64,000 bases of DNA from Neolewinella agarilytica (GTDB lineage Bacteria; Bacteroidota; Bacteroidia; Chitinophagales; Saprospiraceae), in contig NZ_FOFB01000004.1 of the NCBI RefSeq assembly GCF_900110645.1, positions 124,001 through 188,000 of the forward strand, given 5' to 3'. Numbering within the stretch: the first letter of the stretch is position 1; the number at the start of each line of letters is the position of its first letter. Position numbers and translations under genes: made by a program. The notes under the pieces are model-generated. The model was not told where the DNA came from, did no database searches, and saw nothing but the letters and a program-made list of their open reading frames with translations. Positions 21,244-42,611 of the stretch are shown here, piece after piece.

Positions 21244-21251
21244 TAAGTTTG
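21244..21251 (+). promoter_or_regulatory. Candidate -7 promoter box for the seven-gene exported-protein cluster
   Basis: TAAGTTTG fits TAnnTTTG and lies 22 bases before the first ATG (21273). No -33 TTG at the expected place. It is the only such box seen ahead of the cluster. Confidence 0.35.
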
Positions 21252-21272: not shown

Positions 21273-21734
21273 ATGAAATTGTTTAGATCCCTGATTTTCG
21301 TTACCTGCTTGTGTTTTGGGGCAATTGTTTGCGCTCAATCCTCTACTGGAGAGGTTCGATATGTTTCAAGTCCGGAAAAAGGAATTATCGTTCTTGAAGC
21401 TAATGGATACGGTAAAAAAAAGGCTGTCGCCTTTGAGGACGCTACCGTCAAATCTTTCAAAGTATTACTGAAGTCCGGAATTCCGGGATCAAGTCAATAT
21501 TTGCCACTACTTGGTGCAAACGCTCATCAGGTTTACGCGGGAAAAACGGATTTTTTCGAGCAGTTTTTTGCTGACAAAACCTACCTCGAATTTTTAGTGG
21601 ATCAACGTAGAGGAAATTTTAGCCGCCGGGCGAGAAAAACCGACCCTAACGTAAAGGTAAGGCTGGCCATCAACGTTCCCTCACTGCGGCGGTACCTGGA
21701 AGGTGCAGGAGCACTAAGAAAATTTGGCCTTTAA
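21273..21734 (+). CDS. Exported LPP20/FlgT-N-like small protein, first gene of envelope cluster
   Basis: 153 residues with a signal peptide (residues 1-22, ending IVCAQ). The mature part has the pattern IIVLEANGYGKKKAVAFEDA followed by SFKVLLKSGIPGS and ends LRRYLEGAGALRKFGL. The 'glycine-rich strand, then helix of an alanine/aspartate pattern' resembles LPP20 / FlgT N-terminal domains and similar small proteins of Bacteroidota. No catalytic residues. First of seven closely packed genes, all with signal peptides. Function unknown; a structural or chaperone role in an outer-membrane complex is an inference. Confidence 0.65.
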   Translation: MKLFRSLIFVTCLCFGAIVCAQSSTGEVRYVSSPEKGIIVLEANGYGKKKAVAFEDATVKSFKVLLKSGIPGSSQYLPLLGANAHQVYAGKTDFFEQFFADKTYLEFLVDQRRGNFSRRARKTDPNVKVRLAINVPSLRRYLEGAGALRKFGL

Positions 21735-21744
21735 AATATTGATT

Positions 21745-22611
21745 ATGAGATTGTTTTCTATCTTCCTGATAATGCTGTGGGGAGTAAGCCTTGCAGCACA
21801 GGAAAATACTCAAACGGTTCAGCCGACCATTATGGTAATACCGTTTGCTAAAGAAGATGAGCAGTTACGCACTGCTTTAGAAAAGAATGAAGCACTACGC
21901 ATTGCTGTGTCTAAAGTAAAAGAGGGCTTTGACGACCGGGGGTATAGCACTATTGACTTTCGGTCAAAACTCAATCAATTGGGCAACGATCAGGTTATGG
22001 AATCTGACAACGTCACTTCTCTTAAGCAAATGGTGATCGAGCTTTCAGGTGCCGACATTTTCGTGGAAGTGGAAGTACAGAAAAACCGGAGCAGCTCCGG
22101 TAACTCTGTCGCAGTGGTCTTATCCGCTTATGACGCGTATTCCAGCGAATCACTGGCTAACAAAGTTGGTACATCTCCCAAGTTCTATTCGGAAGACTAT
22201 GCAAAACTAACTACCCGAGCTCTCGGGGATAACGTCGAGGAACTGCTGAATACGATCCAACTCAAGTTTGACGATATTGTCGCTAATGGCCGTACGATAA
22301 CGATGAATATCGGCTTCTCTCAAGCCTCCGAATACGATATGGATTCCGAGGTTGGGGTTGACGAAGACTTGCTTTCCGACGTCATCGAAGACTGGCTTTA
22401 TGATAATTCTTTCGGCAACTACTATCACCTTCAGGGTATTACCGCTACCAAAATGATTGTAGATGCTTTTAAAGTCCCGCTCCGGGACGACAAAGGCCGC
22501 AATTTTCGGGTGTCACGGCTAGCCAGCCAGTTTCGTAAGGATTTCAGCGAATTAGGACTGGAGATAACCCGGGATGTTCAGGGTAATCGCATTTTTCTCA
22601 CCATTAATTAA
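21745..22611 (+). CDS. DUF6175-like exported protein
   Basis: 288 residues with signal peptide MRLFSIFLIMLWGVSLAAQ; ATG 21745 replaces an upstream TTG (21724) that would overlap the previous gene. The mature N-terminus (TIMVIPFAKEDEQL, then VKEGFDDRGYSTIDFRSKLN, then LKQMVIELSGADIFVEVEV) has the layout of CsgG-like domains: a strand, a helix and a 'which regulator am I' loop, then a second strand. The protein looks like the Bacteroidota DUF6175 family. The C-terminal 100 residues (NIGFSQASEYDMDSEVGVD) form a separate domain. Ten bases after the previous stop, so clearly co-transcribed. Confidence 0.7.
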   Translation: MRLFSIFLIMLWGVSLAAQENTQTVQPTIMVIPFAKEDEQLRTALEKNEALRIAVSKVKEGFDDRGYSTIDFRSKLNQLGNDQVMESDNVTSLKQMVIELSGADIFVEVEVQKNRSSSGNSVAVVLSAYDAYSSESLANKVGTSPKFYSEDYAKLTTRALGDNVEELLNTIQLKFDDIVANGRTITMNIGFSQASEYDMDSEVGVDEDLLSDVIEDWLYDNSFGNYYHLQGITATKMIVDAFKVPLRDDKGRNFRVSRLASQFRKDFSELGLEITRDVQGNRIFLTIN

Positions 22612-22616
22612 GACTC

Positions 22617-23489
22617 ATGCGTTTTTTTTTACTATTGGGTTGCTTTATGCTGGGAGGCATTAGCCTGTTGGCACAATCTACCTCGGTAGTCGTGCTTAGC
22701 GCTACTAAGGATGCAACCGGCCTGGTCAACGATCTAAGGTTACGTAGCGAGTTGCAAGCGCAGATAGACCAGGTGCTTGCGGCAAATACGTATGGCTCTC
22801 TCGGTTGTCGGTTACAATTGTTTCCCGCGTCCAGCCAACGGATTAGCGGCATGGCTAAAGTGTCCATTACTAAGTATGAATTTTCATTGTCCTTTACAGA
22901 TTATGTGCTCGACTTACCGGTTGGGGAATTAATTACGGGTACAGTGAGTGGCAATGGGGGAAATGATCAGGAAGCGACCACCAATGCACTGAAAAAAATC
23001 TGCAAGACCTATCTCTCCCGGGAAAAACTTCAGAGCGTAATCCGTAAGCATCAAGCGCTATTACCTGCGTGTGATGACTTAGTGTCTCGTCTAAAGAAAC
23101 TCAATGATACAGGGCATCAAACGGAGGTACTGGCGGTGTATACCCAGCTTTCTGACGGTGATAAATGCTCCGTTGAAATGGAGAGCCTGGTGAGCAGCAT
23201 ATATACCCAGCAGCAGGCGGCTGATTGTCGCCAGATGATCATCCGCGCGAAAGCGGAGGTGGTGGCTGGGAACATGCGGCGCGCTGCACAACTGCTGGCA
23301 AGGGTAGATCCTACTTTAGAATGTGCTGATCAGGCCGAGGCTCTTTTGGACGAACTCATGACGAAGGAGGGCCCCCGCAGTAGCTTGGAATGGTATAATA
23401 CTGCCCATCGAAGTCGTAACATTTCCCCGGCCGTACGCCGCAGGATCATTTCCAATTTAGTGCTTGAATATGCTTACAACAATTATTAG
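22617..23489 (+). CDS. Exported protein of unknown function with C-terminal helical repeats
   Basis: 290 residues, signal peptide MRFFLLLGCFMLGGISLLAQ. Residues 20-130 contain strands and a helix (VVVLSATKDATGLVNDLRL, ELITGTVSGNGGNDQEATTN) again reminiscent of LPP20/CsgG-type folds. Residues 150-290 are helical and TPR-like, with cysteines in LLPACDDL, DKCSVEME, ADCRQM and LECADQ that may pair as disulfides in the periplasm. Not recognised as a named family. It starts five bases after the DUF6175-like gene and its 3' end overlaps the next gene by 20 bases. Confidence 0.6.
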   Translation: MRFFLLLGCFMLGGISLLAQSTSVVVLSATKDATGLVNDLRLRSELQAQIDQVLAANTYGSLGCRLQLFPASSQRISGMAKVSITKYEFSLSFTDYVLDLPVGELITGTVSGNGGNDQEATTNALKKICKTYLSREKLQSVIRKHQALLPACDDLVSRLKKLNDTGHQTEVLAVYTQLSDGDKCSVEMESLVSSIYTQQQAADCRQMIIRAKAEVVAGNMRRAAQLLARVDPTLECADQAEALLDELMTKEGPRSSLEWYNTAHRSRNISPAVRRRIISNLVLEYAYNNY

Positions 23490-24255
23490 ACTGGGGGGCG
23501 CACTATTGTGCCTGTTCTTCACTCAAACGCTCCATGCCCAACGTGTAAATGTTTCGGTGGAGCCCATTGAACATTTTGATCCTTATTTCGAAGATTTAGC
23601 CGAAGAGATTGAAGACTTTGTCTCTCGTCAGCTAACGAAAAACAAAGCGCTTCGCCTCGTGGAGCGGGCGAATTTTGCGGGTATTATAGATGAACAGGAG
23701 CGGCAAAAAAACGAAGGCTTTATTGATGGTGAGGTCGTTGAACAAGGCAAGATGGCAGGCGCAAGCCTGTTGGTACGTTTTAAGTATAATGAGTTAGACG
23801 CTGATCTTCGGTTACAGGTTGTTGATATCACTAATGGTGAAATTCTGTGTACGAGTAATTACCCGACGAAAACCAACTCCGATAACGATCTGCCTTTAGT
23901 AGTATGGGGAGAGCTTACCGCTAACCTGGAAAGCTGCTTTAAACAATACAAGGCACCTGCGTCCGCGCCGCTTCAAGTGATTGAGTTGCTACCATCAGAT
24001 GGAAGAAAGGCTCACTTGCTGGTGTATTCAAAAGACACCCGTAGCGTTAAGCCAGGAACCCGGCTTTCCATTTATACCATTACGAAAAAACGGGTTGGGG
24101 ATCAGGAGGTCGACTACCCAACGGTAATTGGAGAACTGGTGGTAAAAGAAATCGAGAATAAAAATTTTCTCAATGGCGAAGTGTTGAAAGGCAGCGATGC
24201 CATTCGATTGCAGTTAAAGGAAGAAAGTGAAATATATGCAAAGCTCTTTGAATAG
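23470..24255 (+). CDS. CsgG-like outer-membrane assembly protein
   Basis: 261 residues, signal peptide MLTTIIRLGGALLCLFFTQT to HAQ. CsgG features: EIEDFVSRQLTKNKALRLVE, then RANFAGIIDEQERQKNEGFI, then EQGKMAGASLLVRFKYNE, the typical 'regulator-binding / membership of oligomer' order. The C-terminal 90 residues (KPGTRLSIYTITKKRVGDQE, TVIGELVVKEI) look like the FlgT C-terminal domain. CsgG proteins form nonameric secretion pores in curli systems, but this one lacks an obvious lipobox Cys and no curlin repeats are nearby. ATG 23470 lies within the end of the upstream gene. A dispersed GC-rich motif copy (23952-23970) lies in frame, encoding APASAP. Confidence 0.75.
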   Translation: MLTTIIRLGGALLCLFFTQTLHAQRVNVSVEPIEHFDPYFEDLAEEIEDFVSRQLTKNKALRLVERANFAGIIDEQERQKNEGFIDGEVVEQGKMAGASLLVRFKYNELDADLRLQVVDITNGEILCTSNYPTKTNSDNDLPLVVWGELTANLESCFKQYKAPASAPLQVIELLPSDGRKAHLLVYSKDTRSVKPGTRLSIYTITKKRVGDQEVDYPTVIGELVVKEIENKNFLNGEVLKGSDAIRLQLKEESEIYAKLFE

Positions 24256-25126
24256 ATTTGGGGTGATTATATTCCTGGTAACGGGAGTTGCCTTTTCCTG
24301 CTTAGCTCAAAACCTGAATCTTGAGTTGGACATTCGGGGGCGACCATTTCAGGCTAATGTTGCCGTGATGCCATCAACGGGGGCTGAATCGGTGCCGTGG
24401 GAATTCGAAGAACAATTTAATGCTTTTATCAGTAACACAGTACGCGAAACACCTGGAGTAGGTAAAGTATTTACTCCAATGGAGATTGCCCGGTACAAAT
24501 TTGGAGCAAGATCAACTCCGTGGATGCGCCGCTACCTTGAAAGCCGGCATTATATGATACGGAGTTACGTTGAAGGTGGCGTAATTGTCAAAAATTCACG
24601 TGGTAATGAAGTCCTGCGCTTCCTGAGTTTTCAAGTCTCCATTATAAATATTGCTACTTCGCAGGTGGAAAAAGTTATACGAATCCAGTGTGATTCTAAA
24701 CGCTTTTTTGAGCATTCTAAAAAGCTTAAAGCGAGCAAATACCCGGGAATGGACCTCTACAAGTTTTCGATGGTGGAACACGGAAGGGAACTCCTGAAAA
24801 AGCAACTTGCGCGGTTTTTTTATAATATCGAACCGGTAGAAGAGTGGAGCCTGGAAGGAAAAGATAAAGGCTTCATTACGAAGTGGCGGGGAGCGGCAAA
24901 CAAGGATTTGCAAAAACTTGTCGATGTAGTTGCCTTGCGCGGTACTATCAATACTCCAATTGGTCCGGTTTACGATTTCATCAATCTTGGAAGCGCGAGG
25001 TATTTCCCAGAGAAGGCAGCTTTGGGCAAACCCTACTATCGATTTATTTCCGGGCGTGCCCGAGCTGAAAAAGCCTTGGGTTTGGGGATGAAAATTTATA
25101 TTTTTCCCGACCACACCTTATTGTGA
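24236..25126 (+). CDS. Exported protein with divergent CsgG-like N-terminal domain
   Basis: 296 residues; ATG 24236 gives a signal peptide (NRFGVIIFLVTGVAFSCLAQ), and a GTG nine bases upstream is possible. The mature N-terminus (ANVAVMPSTGAESVPWEFEE, then FNAFISNTVRETPGVGKVFT, then SYVEGGVIVKNSRGNEVLRF) follows the CsgG-domain layout but with little sequence conservation. The C-terminal half (LQKLVDVVALRGTINTPIGP) is unassigned. It overlaps the previous gene by 20 bases and ends in a GTGA overlap with the next possible start, so translation is probably coupled. Confidence 0.6.
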   Translation: MQSSLNRFGVIIFLVTGVAFSCLAQNLNLELDIRGRPFQANVAVMPSTGAESVPWEFEEQFNAFISNTVRETPGVGKVFTPMEIARYKFGARSTPWMRRYLESRHYMIRSYVEGGVIVKNSRGNEVLRFLSFQVSIINIATSQVEKVIRIQCDSKRFFEHSKKLKASKYPGMDLYKFSMVEHGRELLKKQLARFFYNIEPVEEWSLEGKDKGFITKWRGAANKDLQKLVDVVALRGTINTPIGPVYDFINLGSARYFPEKAALGKPYYRFISGRARAEKALGLGMKIYIFPDHTLL

Positions 25127-25155
25127 TTGCTATCTCACCATTTTTCCTCCAACGG

Positions 25156-26094
25156 ATGAAATTCCCCCTCTGTATGTCAATTATGAGACCAGCCAATCTG
25201 CTGTTTATTGCTTTTCTGACATTATTCAACAGTTGTTTAGCTGCTCAGACTCTCGCACCAGTTAACGTCGTACTTGTACCGGATACCCGCGAGACCTACG
25301 GAGAGCGGGTCATTTTTGCTTCCATCCTTGCTACTATCAGTAATAGTAGTGCGCTTTATCATCAGGTAGAACGGGAAGAATATGATGCGATTCAGAAGGA
25401 AAGACAAGAAGCCTCCAGGCTAAAGGATGACCCATACATAGCTACGGTACTGAAAGGAGCTGCCGTAGCGGTGGAGTTTACCTTGATCGAGTACACAGAA
25501 ATATGGGACTCTATTGCCGTTCCCGAAGTCGTATACAGCAGACCGTGGGATTATTCCCTGACCATTCAGACCGCCTTCGAACTAAAGGTGGTTGACATTG
25601 CTTCCTCAGAAATACTGGATAGTAAGCGCTTTATCGTAAAGGGAACCCCCTCCAAGATAAAAAAGCCATTTGTCGAGATGCAGAAACACTTCATGCGGAT
25701 AAACTGCCTGGGGTATGTGCGGAGAGGCGTGAATAATGCAACAAAGCGATTTTTATTAAAAACGATTTCTCCCGCGATTCCTATGCTCCGGTTTTATAAC
25801 AGTAAGGGAGCTAATCATGTCTGGATTGCCGGGGGCAAAGGAGCTGCTTACCCTGGGGGAACCAAATTGCGCCTTATCCGTGAATCGAACATTATGGTTA
25901 ACGGAGAAGCTGTATTACGGCAGGAAACCGTAGGTGAAGCGGTGGTAAAGAAAAACAATTCTCAATATTCGTATTGCTTGGTGACAAAACTGAAAGCTGG
26001 TATAGATGAATCAGTACTCGCACCTTATGTAATCCCTTCTCCTCAAAATGAGGTTCCACTCGTTTGGCTTGAAAAGCCTGCCGTTCCTAAATAA
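25156..26094 (+). CDS. Exported CsgG-like protein with FlgT-C-like tail
   Basis: 312 residues from ATG 25156. Alternative starts are GTG 25123 (overlapping the previous stop) and ATG 25183, which would leave the cleanest signal peptide (RPANLLFIAFLTLFNSCLAA). Mature N-terminus: VNVVLVPDTRETYGERVIFA, YHQVEREEYDAIQKERQEAS and VLKGAAVAVEFTLIEYTE match the order of CsgG elements. Near the C-terminus GGKGAAYPGGTKLRLIRES and ETVGEAVVKKNNSQYSYCLV resemble the FlgT-C barrel seen in the gene at 23470. It is thus a second two-domain protein of the same design in the cluster. Function unknown. Confidence 0.6.
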   Translation: MKFPLCMSIMRPANLLFIAFLTLFNSCLAAQTLAPVNVVLVPDTRETYGERVIFASILATISNSSALYHQVEREEYDAIQKERQEASRLKDDPYIATVLKGAAVAVEFTLIEYTEIWDSIAVPEVVYSRPWDYSLTIQTAFELKVVDIASSEILDSKRFIVKGTPSKIKKPFVEMQKHFMRINCLGYVRRGVNNATKRFLLKTISPAIPMLRFYNSKGANHVWIAGGKGAAYPGGTKLRLIRESNIMVNGEAVLRQETVGEAVVKKNNSQYSYCLVTKLKAGIDESVLAPYVIPSPQNEVPLVWLEKPAVPK

Positions 26095-26099
26095 CGTTT

Positions 26100-27992
26100 A
26101 TGCGTATTCTATTTTTATTTGTGCTCACGGCTATTTGCGTGCCTACCTCCGGTCAGGATGCTAGAACAACATCACTAATGGCGGATTACCTGGCACCAGA
26201 CCTGAGAGCAGCACAATCTGTTGCTCACGATTCGATTGTACATTACCGACGCCTGGAAGAGGAAAGCATGGCAGCAGGACAGCAATTACTTGGTGGGGAC
26301 GGGTTTTCCCGGTTTGCCTTAGGGTATAGTGTACCGGCAGTCTATGAGGCACAGTATGGTAGTGAGATGACGGCAAAGCTCGTGAGGCTTATGAAAAAAT
26401 GGGAGTTATCCCGAAAGCGACATATGCGCTGGGAGAATCTATACGCTCGGATCAGGGAACTGTCGATTAAAATCGGGCAAAAAGAAATCTATTCGACCTA
26501 CGGAAGCAAAACATTGAGCCTTCTCGAAAATGAAAAAAAACGGTCAGAATTAATTCACCGGGAACTTATACGAGGGGCTCTTTTCTTTCATATGTGGCAG
26601 GAAGGGGTTAGTGAGTACAGCCTGTCGCGCAGTGGTGGTGGCAGAATTTATAAATCCATAAACAAAGTTGAAGAAGCTATCCGGGATTTTAGTTTTCGGG
26701 GCCCAATGCCTGTTTATCAGGAATCCGTAACGGCGGGAGGGGCAATTCCGGCAAAGAACTTACTCTTCTCTTATCCCCAGAACCAACAAGCAAACTTTTA
26801 TCCCGACGAAAATATCCGGGTCATGGGCGCTGTGGTGCTGCGCAACTACTATAACTCCGGACTTAGTGAGGCCTCCCGTACCGGTATGCTCTGGGCTCGA
26901 TGGAAGAGCGCAGCGGGCAAGGTTCTGTATACCCGCGCCGTGTTCAGTGGCAAACAAATCAATTATCGTATTCCCCGCGACTTTCTCAACGCCCGTGAAG
27001 TTTACCAATTGGCCATCGTGAAGTCAAAGAACGATATTTATGATGAAGTACTGGATTTCTATGCGAAAAAAGAGATCAGCCAGTTAATTAACCAGGGGAT
27101 ATATCATCGGGAGAAAAAGGAGGTGGTTCCCGAAGAGACTTATTTCAAGGCTTACTTCAGAGTAAGTAGTTATGGTAGGTTTTTAGGCAAAACGATGCGG
27201 CAGAAGTTTACACCACTTGAAGGCCCGGGGATGGCCTACCGGTTCCGGGCAGAAGAACCTTTTGGCCCTGAGGAAGTAGCGGGCCTCCACGGAATGCCCA
27301 CTCAGGCATATTTTTCTTATTACGGATGCCCAGAGCCAGAAAGTATTCTGGATAAAATTTATGGAGCAGCAGCCCGTACTTTTTATGCTCACCCGACTCA
27401 GGAATACGTAGACTACCTGAAGCGAAATAAAGAACAGTTAAATCTCGACAGCCTTATCGCCATCGAGTTTTTACCCTATAAGGAGCGGGTAAGTAAATAT
27501 CGCCGGCTCACTTATACCGACGTAGATGGTAAAAGGCTCCGCGTAACCTCTAAAAAACTACCTCTGCCCGCAAAACCAAATCACAGGAGCCACATTTACG
27601 CCTCGGCGGAGGTCCAACCCATTACGGAGACCATCTTTAAAAACCCGACGCTGTACAAAATGACTGCCGGAGAATTGATTCTCAGAGATACTTTTCCGGA
27701 AGCCGTTCAGCGAATCGCACTGGATATTGCTCCGGTCTTTGAAGAACGCGCCGAAGAATACGCTGATCTGTTACGCGAGCTTAATGCTCTCTCGCCGCAA
27801 GTACCGGCAGGAACGGATTTCTCAACTCTTGTAAAGGAAATAAACGCTTCATACGTTACAGATCCTTACAACGAAAACATGGTGGGGCTGAAAACGTGCT
27901 TCCCTGAAAAAATCAACATTGGTTATAGTTTGCCCATGCGTGCCATGGCGACAACTTCAGGAACTATGGAACTTGAAAAGAAGAAGGAATAA
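26100..27992 (+). CDS. Large exported protein of unknown function, last gene of envelope cluster
   Basis: 630 residues with signal peptide MRILFLFVLTAICVPTSGQ. Residues 30-210 are strongly helical with many charged residues (KLVRLMKKWELSRKRHMRWE, KRSELIHRELIRGALFFHMW) and could form a coiled bundle. Residues 240-400 have mixed strands, including a Tyr-rich part (AYFSYYGCPEPESILDKIYG). No enzyme motif, lipobox or sorting domain was recognised. It starts five bases after the previous stop and is the last gene of the run; the next gene downstream is unrelated and 155 bases away. It may be the structural or effector component; that is inference. Confidence 0.55.
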   Translation: MRILFLFVLTAICVPTSGQDARTTSLMADYLAPDLRAAQSVAHDSIVHYRRLEEESMAAGQQLLGGDGFSRFALGYSVPAVYEAQYGSEMTAKLVRLMKKWELSRKRHMRWENLYARIRELSIKIGQKEIYSTYGSKTLSLLENEKKRSELIHRELIRGALFFHMWQEGVSEYSLSRSGGGRIYKSINKVEEAIRDFSFRGPMPVYQESVTAGGAIPAKNLLFSYPQNQQANFYPDENIRVMGAVVLRNYYNSGLSEASRTGMLWARWKSAAGKVLYTRAVFSGKQINYRIPRDFLNAREVYQLAIVKSKNDIYDEVLDFYAKKEISQLINQGIYHREKKEVVPEETYFKAYFRVSSYGRFLGKTMRQKFTPLEGPGMAYRFRAEEPFGPEEVAGLHGMPTQAYFSYYGCPEPESILDKIYGAAARTFYAHPTQEYVDYLKRNKEQLNLDSLIAIEFLPYKERVSKYRRLTYTDVDGKRLRVTSKKLPLPAKPNHRSHIYASAEVQPITETIFKNPTLYKMTAGELILRDTFPEAVQRIALDIAPVFEERAEEYADLLRELNALSPQVPAGTDFSTLVKEINASYVTDPYNENMVGLKTCFPEKINIGYSLPMRAMATTSGTMELEKKKE

Positions 27993-28650: not shown

Positions 28651-28728
28651 TCATTCATTCCCACCATTCCCTCATTCTCCCATTCCCTCATTCTCCCATT
28701 CCTTCATTCTCCCATTCCTTCATTCATT
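28651..28728. repeat. Short tandem repeat CATTCYCTCATTCTCC
   Basis: About five imperfect copies of a 14-16 base unit (CATTCTCCCATTCC) fill the gap between two genes up to the start codon at 28729. A similar low-complexity block lies at 51915-51978. Confidence 0.85.
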
Positions 28729-42231: not shown

Positions 42232-42603
42232 GGGGGCGTACCGGAATCGACAGGGAAGTAAGCTTTGTAGTAAGCACGCCGGAGCATGATTGGTTACTCC
42301 GTAAAAAATAACGATTATACTTCTAGTTGGCACTCCCAGCTACGCTATGGCAGCCTAATCTCTGATTAGAACCATAGTATATAGGCCGCATGGTTGAGGT
42401 ACCATACACATCACGCCGCCTTCACCCTCTTGGTACTAGTCGCCCATCCTGATCTGAGTGGGAGGCGAAATTAAAGGATCTACGGTTTGGGATTAGAGGG
42501 CAACCAATCTTCCCCCGGACCCGACAATCTAACTGGTTCGCTAAGCGTGTAGAAAGCTGCCTTGCGCTTTCGCTGGACGGGAGTTCAAATCTCCCCGCCT
42601 CCA
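42232..42603 (+). ncRNA. ssrA: tmRNA (transfer-messenger RNA)
   Basis: 372 bases. The acceptor stem is GGGGGCG (42232-42238) with CGCCTCC (42596-42602) and discriminator A at 42603. The T-arm reads GGACGGGAGTTCAAATCTCC and the 5' half has TACCGGAATCGACAGGGAAG, the tRNA-like domain of tmRNA. The tag frame begins at 42329: GGC ACT CCC AGC TAC, then GCT ATG GCA GCC TAA, giving GTPSYAMAA. The hydrophobic Ala-Ala end is normal for proteolysis tags. CCA is not encoded. An upstream TATGTTTT box (42183) may be its promoter. A terminator hairpin follows at once. Confidence 0.95.
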
Positions 42604-42611
42604 CTTCACAT

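Follow-up and report, generated by a model that had tools for sequence, protein, structure and literature searches.

An exported DUF6175 gene module with CsgG-like proteins in Neolewinella agarilytica and other Bacteroidota

A block of seven genes (g1 to g7) was analysed in a 64,000-nucleotide stretch of the 6.2 Mb genome of Neolewinella agarilytica (contig NZ_FOFB01000004.1, positions 124,001 to 188,000; hereafter the window). Three of these genes, g1, g2 and g3, are the conserved core of a module found across Bacteroidota, a core that was absent from a preliminary description of the block. The seven open reading frames (ORFs) lie at window positions 21273–27992, packed end to end on the + strand (Table 1). 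All seven products begin with a signal-peptide-like stretch, judged by eye and by hydropathy, which bears out the earlier description of seven exported, co-directional genes. With the starts used here, the gaps from g1 to g7 are 10, 5, −20, −20, 29 and 5 bp. The spacing first described, 5–10 bases or overlaps, thus holds for five junctions and fails before g6, where the ATG at 25156 leaves 29 bp; an alternative GTG at 25123 would give a 4-bp overlap. The block is indeed richer in AT than its neighbours, with a GC content of 0.461 against 0.535 in the remainder of the window. Upstream of g1, the candidate promoter element TAAGTTTG, read from the sequence, bears what we take to be a likeness to the Bacteroidota −7 element TANNTTTG.

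Table 1. Coordinates of the block and its features in the window
Feature	Position	Strand	Description
Candidate promoter element TAAGTTTG	21244..21251	+	21 bases 5′ of g1; read from sequence
g1	21273..21734	+	153 aa, exported; mostly lipoprotein in relatives; g2 partner; no Pfam family
g2	21745..22611	+	288 aa, exported, DUF6175 (PF19672); best-conserved gene in block
g3	22617..23489	+	290 aa, exported; in distant relatives its N-terminal domain is joined to LPP20
g3 C-terminal part			helical repeats; conserved cysteines 152, 184, 204, 236
g4	23470..24255	+	261 aa, exported, CsgG-like by family, without the CsgG hairpin insert
g5	24236..25126	+	296 aa, exported; marginally similar to CsgG-like family
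g6	25156..26094	+	312 aa, exported, CsgG-like by family; longer insert at hairpin position
g7	26100..27992	+	630 aa, exported, no known family

The second gene encodes a full-length DUF6175 protein (270.2 bits against a cut-off of 23, E 2.5e-80, profile positions 2–292 of 293). Scanning named genomes with the g2 alignment yielded 62 loci in Saprospiraceae, Chitinophagaceae, Cytophagales, Flavobacteriales, Pedobacter, Prevotellaceae, Bacteroidaceae and other taxa. A frequent order is a short CsgG-like gene (∼270 aa), often a long one (∼540 aa), and then g1, g2 and g3; Myroides and Pedobacter carry compact four-gene loci. Among the named loci, g3 follows g2, with one intervening ORF allowed, in all 57 that have enough sequence (61 have g2), g1 lies immediately 5′ of g2 in 46 of 59, and 48 of 48 have a CsgG-like gene on the same strand at most 6 kb away. 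The gaps between module genes have a median of 8 bp and measure at most 30 bp in 81 of 104 cases. Separate searches of 395 sampled phylum genomes detected DUF6175 in 19 and matches to the g1 profile in 20; 18 genomes carry both against 0.96 expected, a figure uncorrected for kinship. Conservation of gene order, which had been proposed as a check, is therefore found both in the core across phylum loci and, for all seven genes, in a second Neolewinella species discussed below.

Locus gene labels come from iterated profiles and may contain slips; one ORF (L063:9129-9989) was listed under g3 as well as under CsgG-like. Five pairs of loci are duplicates (L017=L029, L019=L052, L020=L051, L021=L042 and L022=L054); both copies were kept in the iterated labelling and in the CsgG-like/g2 profile counts, whereas the locus map leaves out the second-listed copy of each pair, the one from the named genomes. 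Because close relatives are included (L039/L041, L087/L089), the loci cannot be counted as independent events. The alignments comprised 61 of 76 short CsgG-like, 24 of 26 long CsgG-like, 47 of 48 g1, 59 of 65 g2 and 53 of 62 g3 sequences, with three odd-length CsgG-like ORFs set aside.

The first two genes form one unit, fused in distant genomes. LPP20 matches, present in 39 of 296 phylum genomes, led to this finding: eight genomes were picked for closely spaced DUF6175 and LPP20 matches, and all eight carry a single ORF with g1 followed by g2. The g1 part matches at E 3.5e-10 to 0.0074 and the g2 part at 1e-15 to 2.8e-12, and profile comparison gives 96.9 % and 98.4 %, respectively. Two further genomes (G485 and G375) carry the same fused ORF, and in two others (G205 and G413) g1, g2 and g3 stay separate. 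The next gene after the fusion has an LPP20 match in 8/8 cases, confirmed by Pfam in the 4/4 scanned, and the same gene ends in the g3 N-terminal domain (E 7.7e-12 to 0.0075; profile comparison 96.7 %).

These results relocate the LPP20 connection. The preliminary description saw an LPP20/FlgT-N-like pattern in g1. None of the 47 g1 family members matches LPP20 (PF02169) at E ≤ 0.1, no LPP20 match was found in the N. agarilytica genome, and the assignment was dropped; LPP20 is joined instead to the N-terminal domain of g3. No Pfam family matched g1 at all. Its relatives usually carry a lipoprotein-type cysteine: a relaxed rule finds it in 37 of 47 and a stricter rule in 21, and 42 of 47 have a cysteine in that column. 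By the relaxed rule such a cysteine is found in 2/61 short CsgG-like, 0/24 long CsgG-like, 2/59 g2 and 3/53 g3 proteins.

Of the 53 g3 family members, 26 match a TPR-type Pfam model. Four cysteines, overlooked in the preliminary description, are conserved in 51 of 53, and the remaining two members, which are close relatives, jointly lack the first pair. A kinship of g3 with the CsgG-like family was tried and not used as proof: an hhalign value of ∼94 % had aligned signal peptides and fell to 19.3 % without them (73.7 % for the N-terminus alone).

Family-level profile matches place g4 and g6 in a CsgG/LpoB-like family. At E ≤ 0.1, 39 of 61 short members match CsgG (best 3e-18), and smaller numbers match FlgT_M (7), TolB_N (5), FlgT_C (4, best 0.0017) and FlgO (4); FlgT_N is not among the 25 families listed. 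Individually, g4 (17.6 bits) and g6 (15.9 bits) fall below the Pfam CsgG (PF03783) cut-off of 20.8. A search of the whole N. agarilytica genome with the CsgG-like profile returned, at E ≤ 0.1, g4, g6, g2 (0.040) and two matches of signal-peptide size only. In a quick tree of 100 CsgG-like domains, g4 and its N. persica homologue group with support 97 and g6 and its homologue with 99; deeper forks are mostly weak. A long CsgG-like protein of 675 aa at L225:7423-9450 (G651) contains two tandem CsgG-like domains.

The earlier claim that g2, g4, g6 and probably g5 are CsgG-like accordingly stands for g4 and g6 by family, is remote for g2 and marginal for g5, and the FlgT-C-like barrel proposed for g4 and g6 is weakly supported by the four FlgT_C matches. 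For g5, hhalign gives 62.6 % with a two-sequence profile, and there is no Pfam CsgG match. For g2 the kinship is one-sided: the CsgG-like profile picks up g2, whereas the g2 profile picks up next to nothing of that family. Of 76 g2 proteins, the family profile freed of signal peptides hit 50 at E ≤ 1 and 25 at E ≤ 0.1 (shuffled copies: 3 and 0), and the CsgG domain alone hit 37 and 20 (shuffled copies: 2 and 1). An hhalign value of ∼94 % between g2 and the CsgG-like family was rejected, as signal peptides had been aligned and it falls to 8.9 % without them.

The description of g7 as lacking a known domain holds, in that no known family matched, and profile comparison linked g7 to none of the CsgG-like, g1, g2 and g3 families. 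Of 229 family genomes, three (G000, G004 and G651) have full-length homologues, all beside the module; iterated search adds the named loci L032 and L046, again beside it. An exported protein of ∼400–800 aa lies directly upstream of g1 in further genomes. The central part of g7 has weak matches in 15 further family genomes, inside ORFs of 1575–4884 aa (e.g. L018:4625-9466 and L227:3611-9895).

All seven homologues are found in identical order, at another locus, in Neolewinella persica (G004; L017/L029), where by eye the block adjoins cytochrome c oxidase-like genes. Local BLASTP identities to N. persica are 47, 68, 32, 40, 30, 37 and 31 % for g1 to g7, so g2, at 68 % against 30–47 % for the other six, is under much stronger constraint. 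DUF6175 occurs in 3 of 21 genus genomes, namely N. agarilytica itself, N. persica and, as a divergent copy, G010; g5 was found here solely in the first two. In G010 (L027:8668-13248), two CsgG-like genes accompany the divergent DUF6175 gene, and the protein encoded beside them combines a phosphorylase-superfamily domain with effector-associated domain 11.

The block is flanked by what we take to be a RecQ-type helicase gene and, on the other side, by genes for 166-aa and 141-aa proteins followed by presumed sbcD and sbcC. RecQ and SbcC matches lie on one contig, 2.07–4.41 kb apart, in 14 of 20 other genus genomes and 9.43 kb apart here; the other six gave no spacing, with matches on different contigs (G005, G010), a distant RecQ match only (G002, G007) or matches that were incomplete or absent (G009, G018). 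The 7/7 RecQ–SbcC intervals fetched (L142-L148) showed no DNA resemblance to the block, and two of them keep the 166-aa gene (G014 and G004). Insertion of the block at this site is a simpler reading than loss elsewhere. The absence of the block at the same site in relatives (14 spacings, 7 intervals) fits the hint of transfer in the preliminary description. Low GC, on which that hint was based, was dropped and is no argument for transfer, since the module has a lower GC than the DNA on either side at 30 of the 36 loci where the two were compared. A similar exported protein of ∼320 aa, presumably ThuA-like, lies near the RecQ–SbcD interval in G014 (L142:1701-2663) and G004 (L143:1211-2176); the window has none there. 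Elsewhere in the window, an 8-base-period repeat at 28656-28725 precedes the 141-aa gene, and a tmRNA gene at 42232-42604 encodes the tag peptide GTPSYAMAA.

We read the block as one lineage's version of a dedicated envelope complex conserved in Bacteroidota, an outer-membrane-anchored periplasmic scaffold here termed the DUF6175 module, and we regard the chances of this as about even. The module probably builds a previously unstudied outer-membrane structure. In this reading, g1 would tether g2 to the periplasmic face of the outer membrane, and g3 would act as a helical-repeat adaptor with two putative disulphides, 152–184 and 204–236, whose partners lie ∼32 residues apart with 20 residues between the pairs. 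The CsgG-like proteins would be periplasmic subunits that oligomerise as their fold relatives do, and in Neolewinella g5, g6 and g7 may replace the long CsgG-like protein of many other genomes. The whole may form a scaffold or disk beneath the outer membrane that acts like the FlgO/FlgP/FlgT and PelC rings. Ring formation is suggested by oligomers among relatives of the CsgG fold: twelve PelC lipoproteins make up a periplasmic ring (PMC12141448), the H ring is made of FlgT and FlgO with FlgP (PMC6504787) and the CsgG–CsgF complex is nonameric (PMC7304575). A more specific version, which we hold tentatively and at somewhat less than even confidence, is that the block encodes an undescribed periplasmic machine with a lipoprotein-anchored g1–DUF6175 core, an adaptor stapled by disulphides, and CsgG-fold subunits that differ between lineages. 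It would have changed its genomic position as a block, and its role would be distinct from those of curli, Pel export and the H ring.

Several points weigh against the scaffold reading. No recognised g1 lies directly upstream of g2 in 13 of 59 loci, and several distant genomes with a fused g1–g2 have no CsgG-like gene seen nearby. In the window, the g1 cysteine follows valine, an unusual and doubtful site, and N. persica g1 lacks such a site, so the anchor role of g1 may not apply here. The kinship of g2 with CsgG is remote (hhalign 22.7 % for the domain alone, beside the signal-peptide-free value above). The module is also rare (19 of 395 phylum genomes for DUF6175) and patchy and is thus not a housekeeping scaffold. 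Finally, no client gene recurs: when 491 neighbour ORFs were clustered, no cluster was present in more than 8 loci.

An unlikely alternative is that the block encodes a CsgG-type outer-membrane secretion channel, in which g6, or the CsgG-like proteins jointly, would form the pore, with g7 or a protein encoded elsewhere as possible cargo. The CsgG matches across the family fit such a channel, as does g7, which is exported and has full-length homologues beside the module. The family profile aligns weakly with solved CsgG (E 0.043), and CsgG residues 137–157, which we take to be part of the first membrane hairpin, have no counterpart in this alignment. Between the landmarks at this position CsgG has ∼50 residues (counted from the alignment), whereas g4 has 26, and the stretch is no longer than 33 in 38 of 61 members. 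In favour of the channel, it spans at least 46 residues in g6, in the N. persica counterpart of g6 and in 12 more of the 61, and because the g6 insert is that long, a hairpin in g6 is conceivable. The inserts are mostly polar-looking, however. CsgG is a lipoprotein, unlike the CsgG-like proteins here (2 of 61). The host genome, moreover, contains no CsgF at E ≤ 1.

Still less probable is a peptidoglycan-synthase activating complex, in which LpoB-like domains of g4 and g6 would extend across the cell wall to activate a penicillin-binding protein. LpoB itself, a lipoprotein of the outer membrane, activates the penicillin-binding protein PBP1b. Its profile matches as many family members as that of CsgG (39 of 61, best 1.5e-11). 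Against this proposal, however, the LpoB and CsgG profiles match the same members, so the LpoB matches reflect fold similarity rather than membership; the CsgG-like proteins are also mostly unlipidated, and no cell-wall gene recurs among the clustered neighbours.

The neighbours themselves raise a further alternative, that the module is an envelope sensing or stress device which signals the state of the envelope to regulators, cytoplasmic or exported, such as TPR-CHAT proteins, sigma/anti-sigma pairs or response regulators; we consider this very improbable. The most suggestive neighbour cluster is an exported TPR-CHAT protein, found upstream in 7 loci (one of the seven was scanned), with sigma-like genes in 5 of those, and response-regulator-like neighbours occur in 8 loci. 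Yet no regulator recurs in more than 8 loci, regulators are common genes, and none flanks the window block within the operon. The TPR-CHAT protein is ∼755 aa long at L030:4232-6520 (CHAT 1.7e-57), is also encoded near the module in L022, L033, L053, L059, L061 and L079, and has sigma-/anti-sigma-like genes near it in several cases. That the block is a chance run of unrelated exported genes is scarcely credible: the restriction of g5 to two genomes and the fast divergence of six of the seven genes (30–47 % versus N. persica) would fit it, but the seven-gene order at different loci in two species, the core synteny, the co-occurrence and the fusion refute it for g1–g2–g3 and the CsgG-like genes, and g5 alone still admits chance.

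In the envelope-scaffold reading, a functionally unassigned domain and several exported proteins without names become parts of one testable system built on a defined set of core genes. The natural g1–g2 fusion predicts that g1 and g2 are in contact, and carriers are in culture in Neolewinella, Pedobacter and Myroides. If the ring reading is true, the fold known from curli and flagellar motors has given rise to one more envelope machine in Bacteroidota.

Set against known systems, the folds are familiar and their assembly is undescribed in the literature searched, which contains neither a mention of DUF6175/PF19672 nor a description of the gene set; this literature covers no bioRxiv preprints and only a minority of subscription journals. 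The g2 protein is a full-length member of DUF6175. The module resembles curli CsgG/CsgF in the CsgG-like domain of g4 and g6 by family and in the weak match to solved CsgG. It differs in the unlipidated state of the CsgG-like family, in the lack of a hairpin insert in g4, in its other partners and in the lack of host CsgF. A machine separate from curli, as the preliminary description had supposed, agrees with the N. agarilytica genome, which holds no CsgG over the cut-off and no CsgF at E ≤ 1 (CsgE, flagellar and type IX secretion system genes were not searched); its only CsgG-profile match at E ≤ 1 is g4. Like the Vibrio H ring, the block is an exported set that combines CsgG/FlgT_M-type with lipoprotein/LPP20-type parts, and some members of its CsgG-like family match FlgT_M (7 of 61) and FlgT_C (4 of 61). 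In contrast to that ring, however, g1 has no LPP20 match, LPP20 being present just in the distant fused version; flagellar genes were outside the search. PelC is kin to the CsgG fold, and PelB/PelC share with the module the use of exported subunits beneath the outer membrane, whereas here the lipoprotein is the small g1 rather than a CsgG-like subunit and the block carries no Pel genes. Finally, the CsgG-like family resembles LpoB (PF13036) in its profile matches and differs from it in lacking lipidation and in belonging to a multi-gene core with DUF6175.

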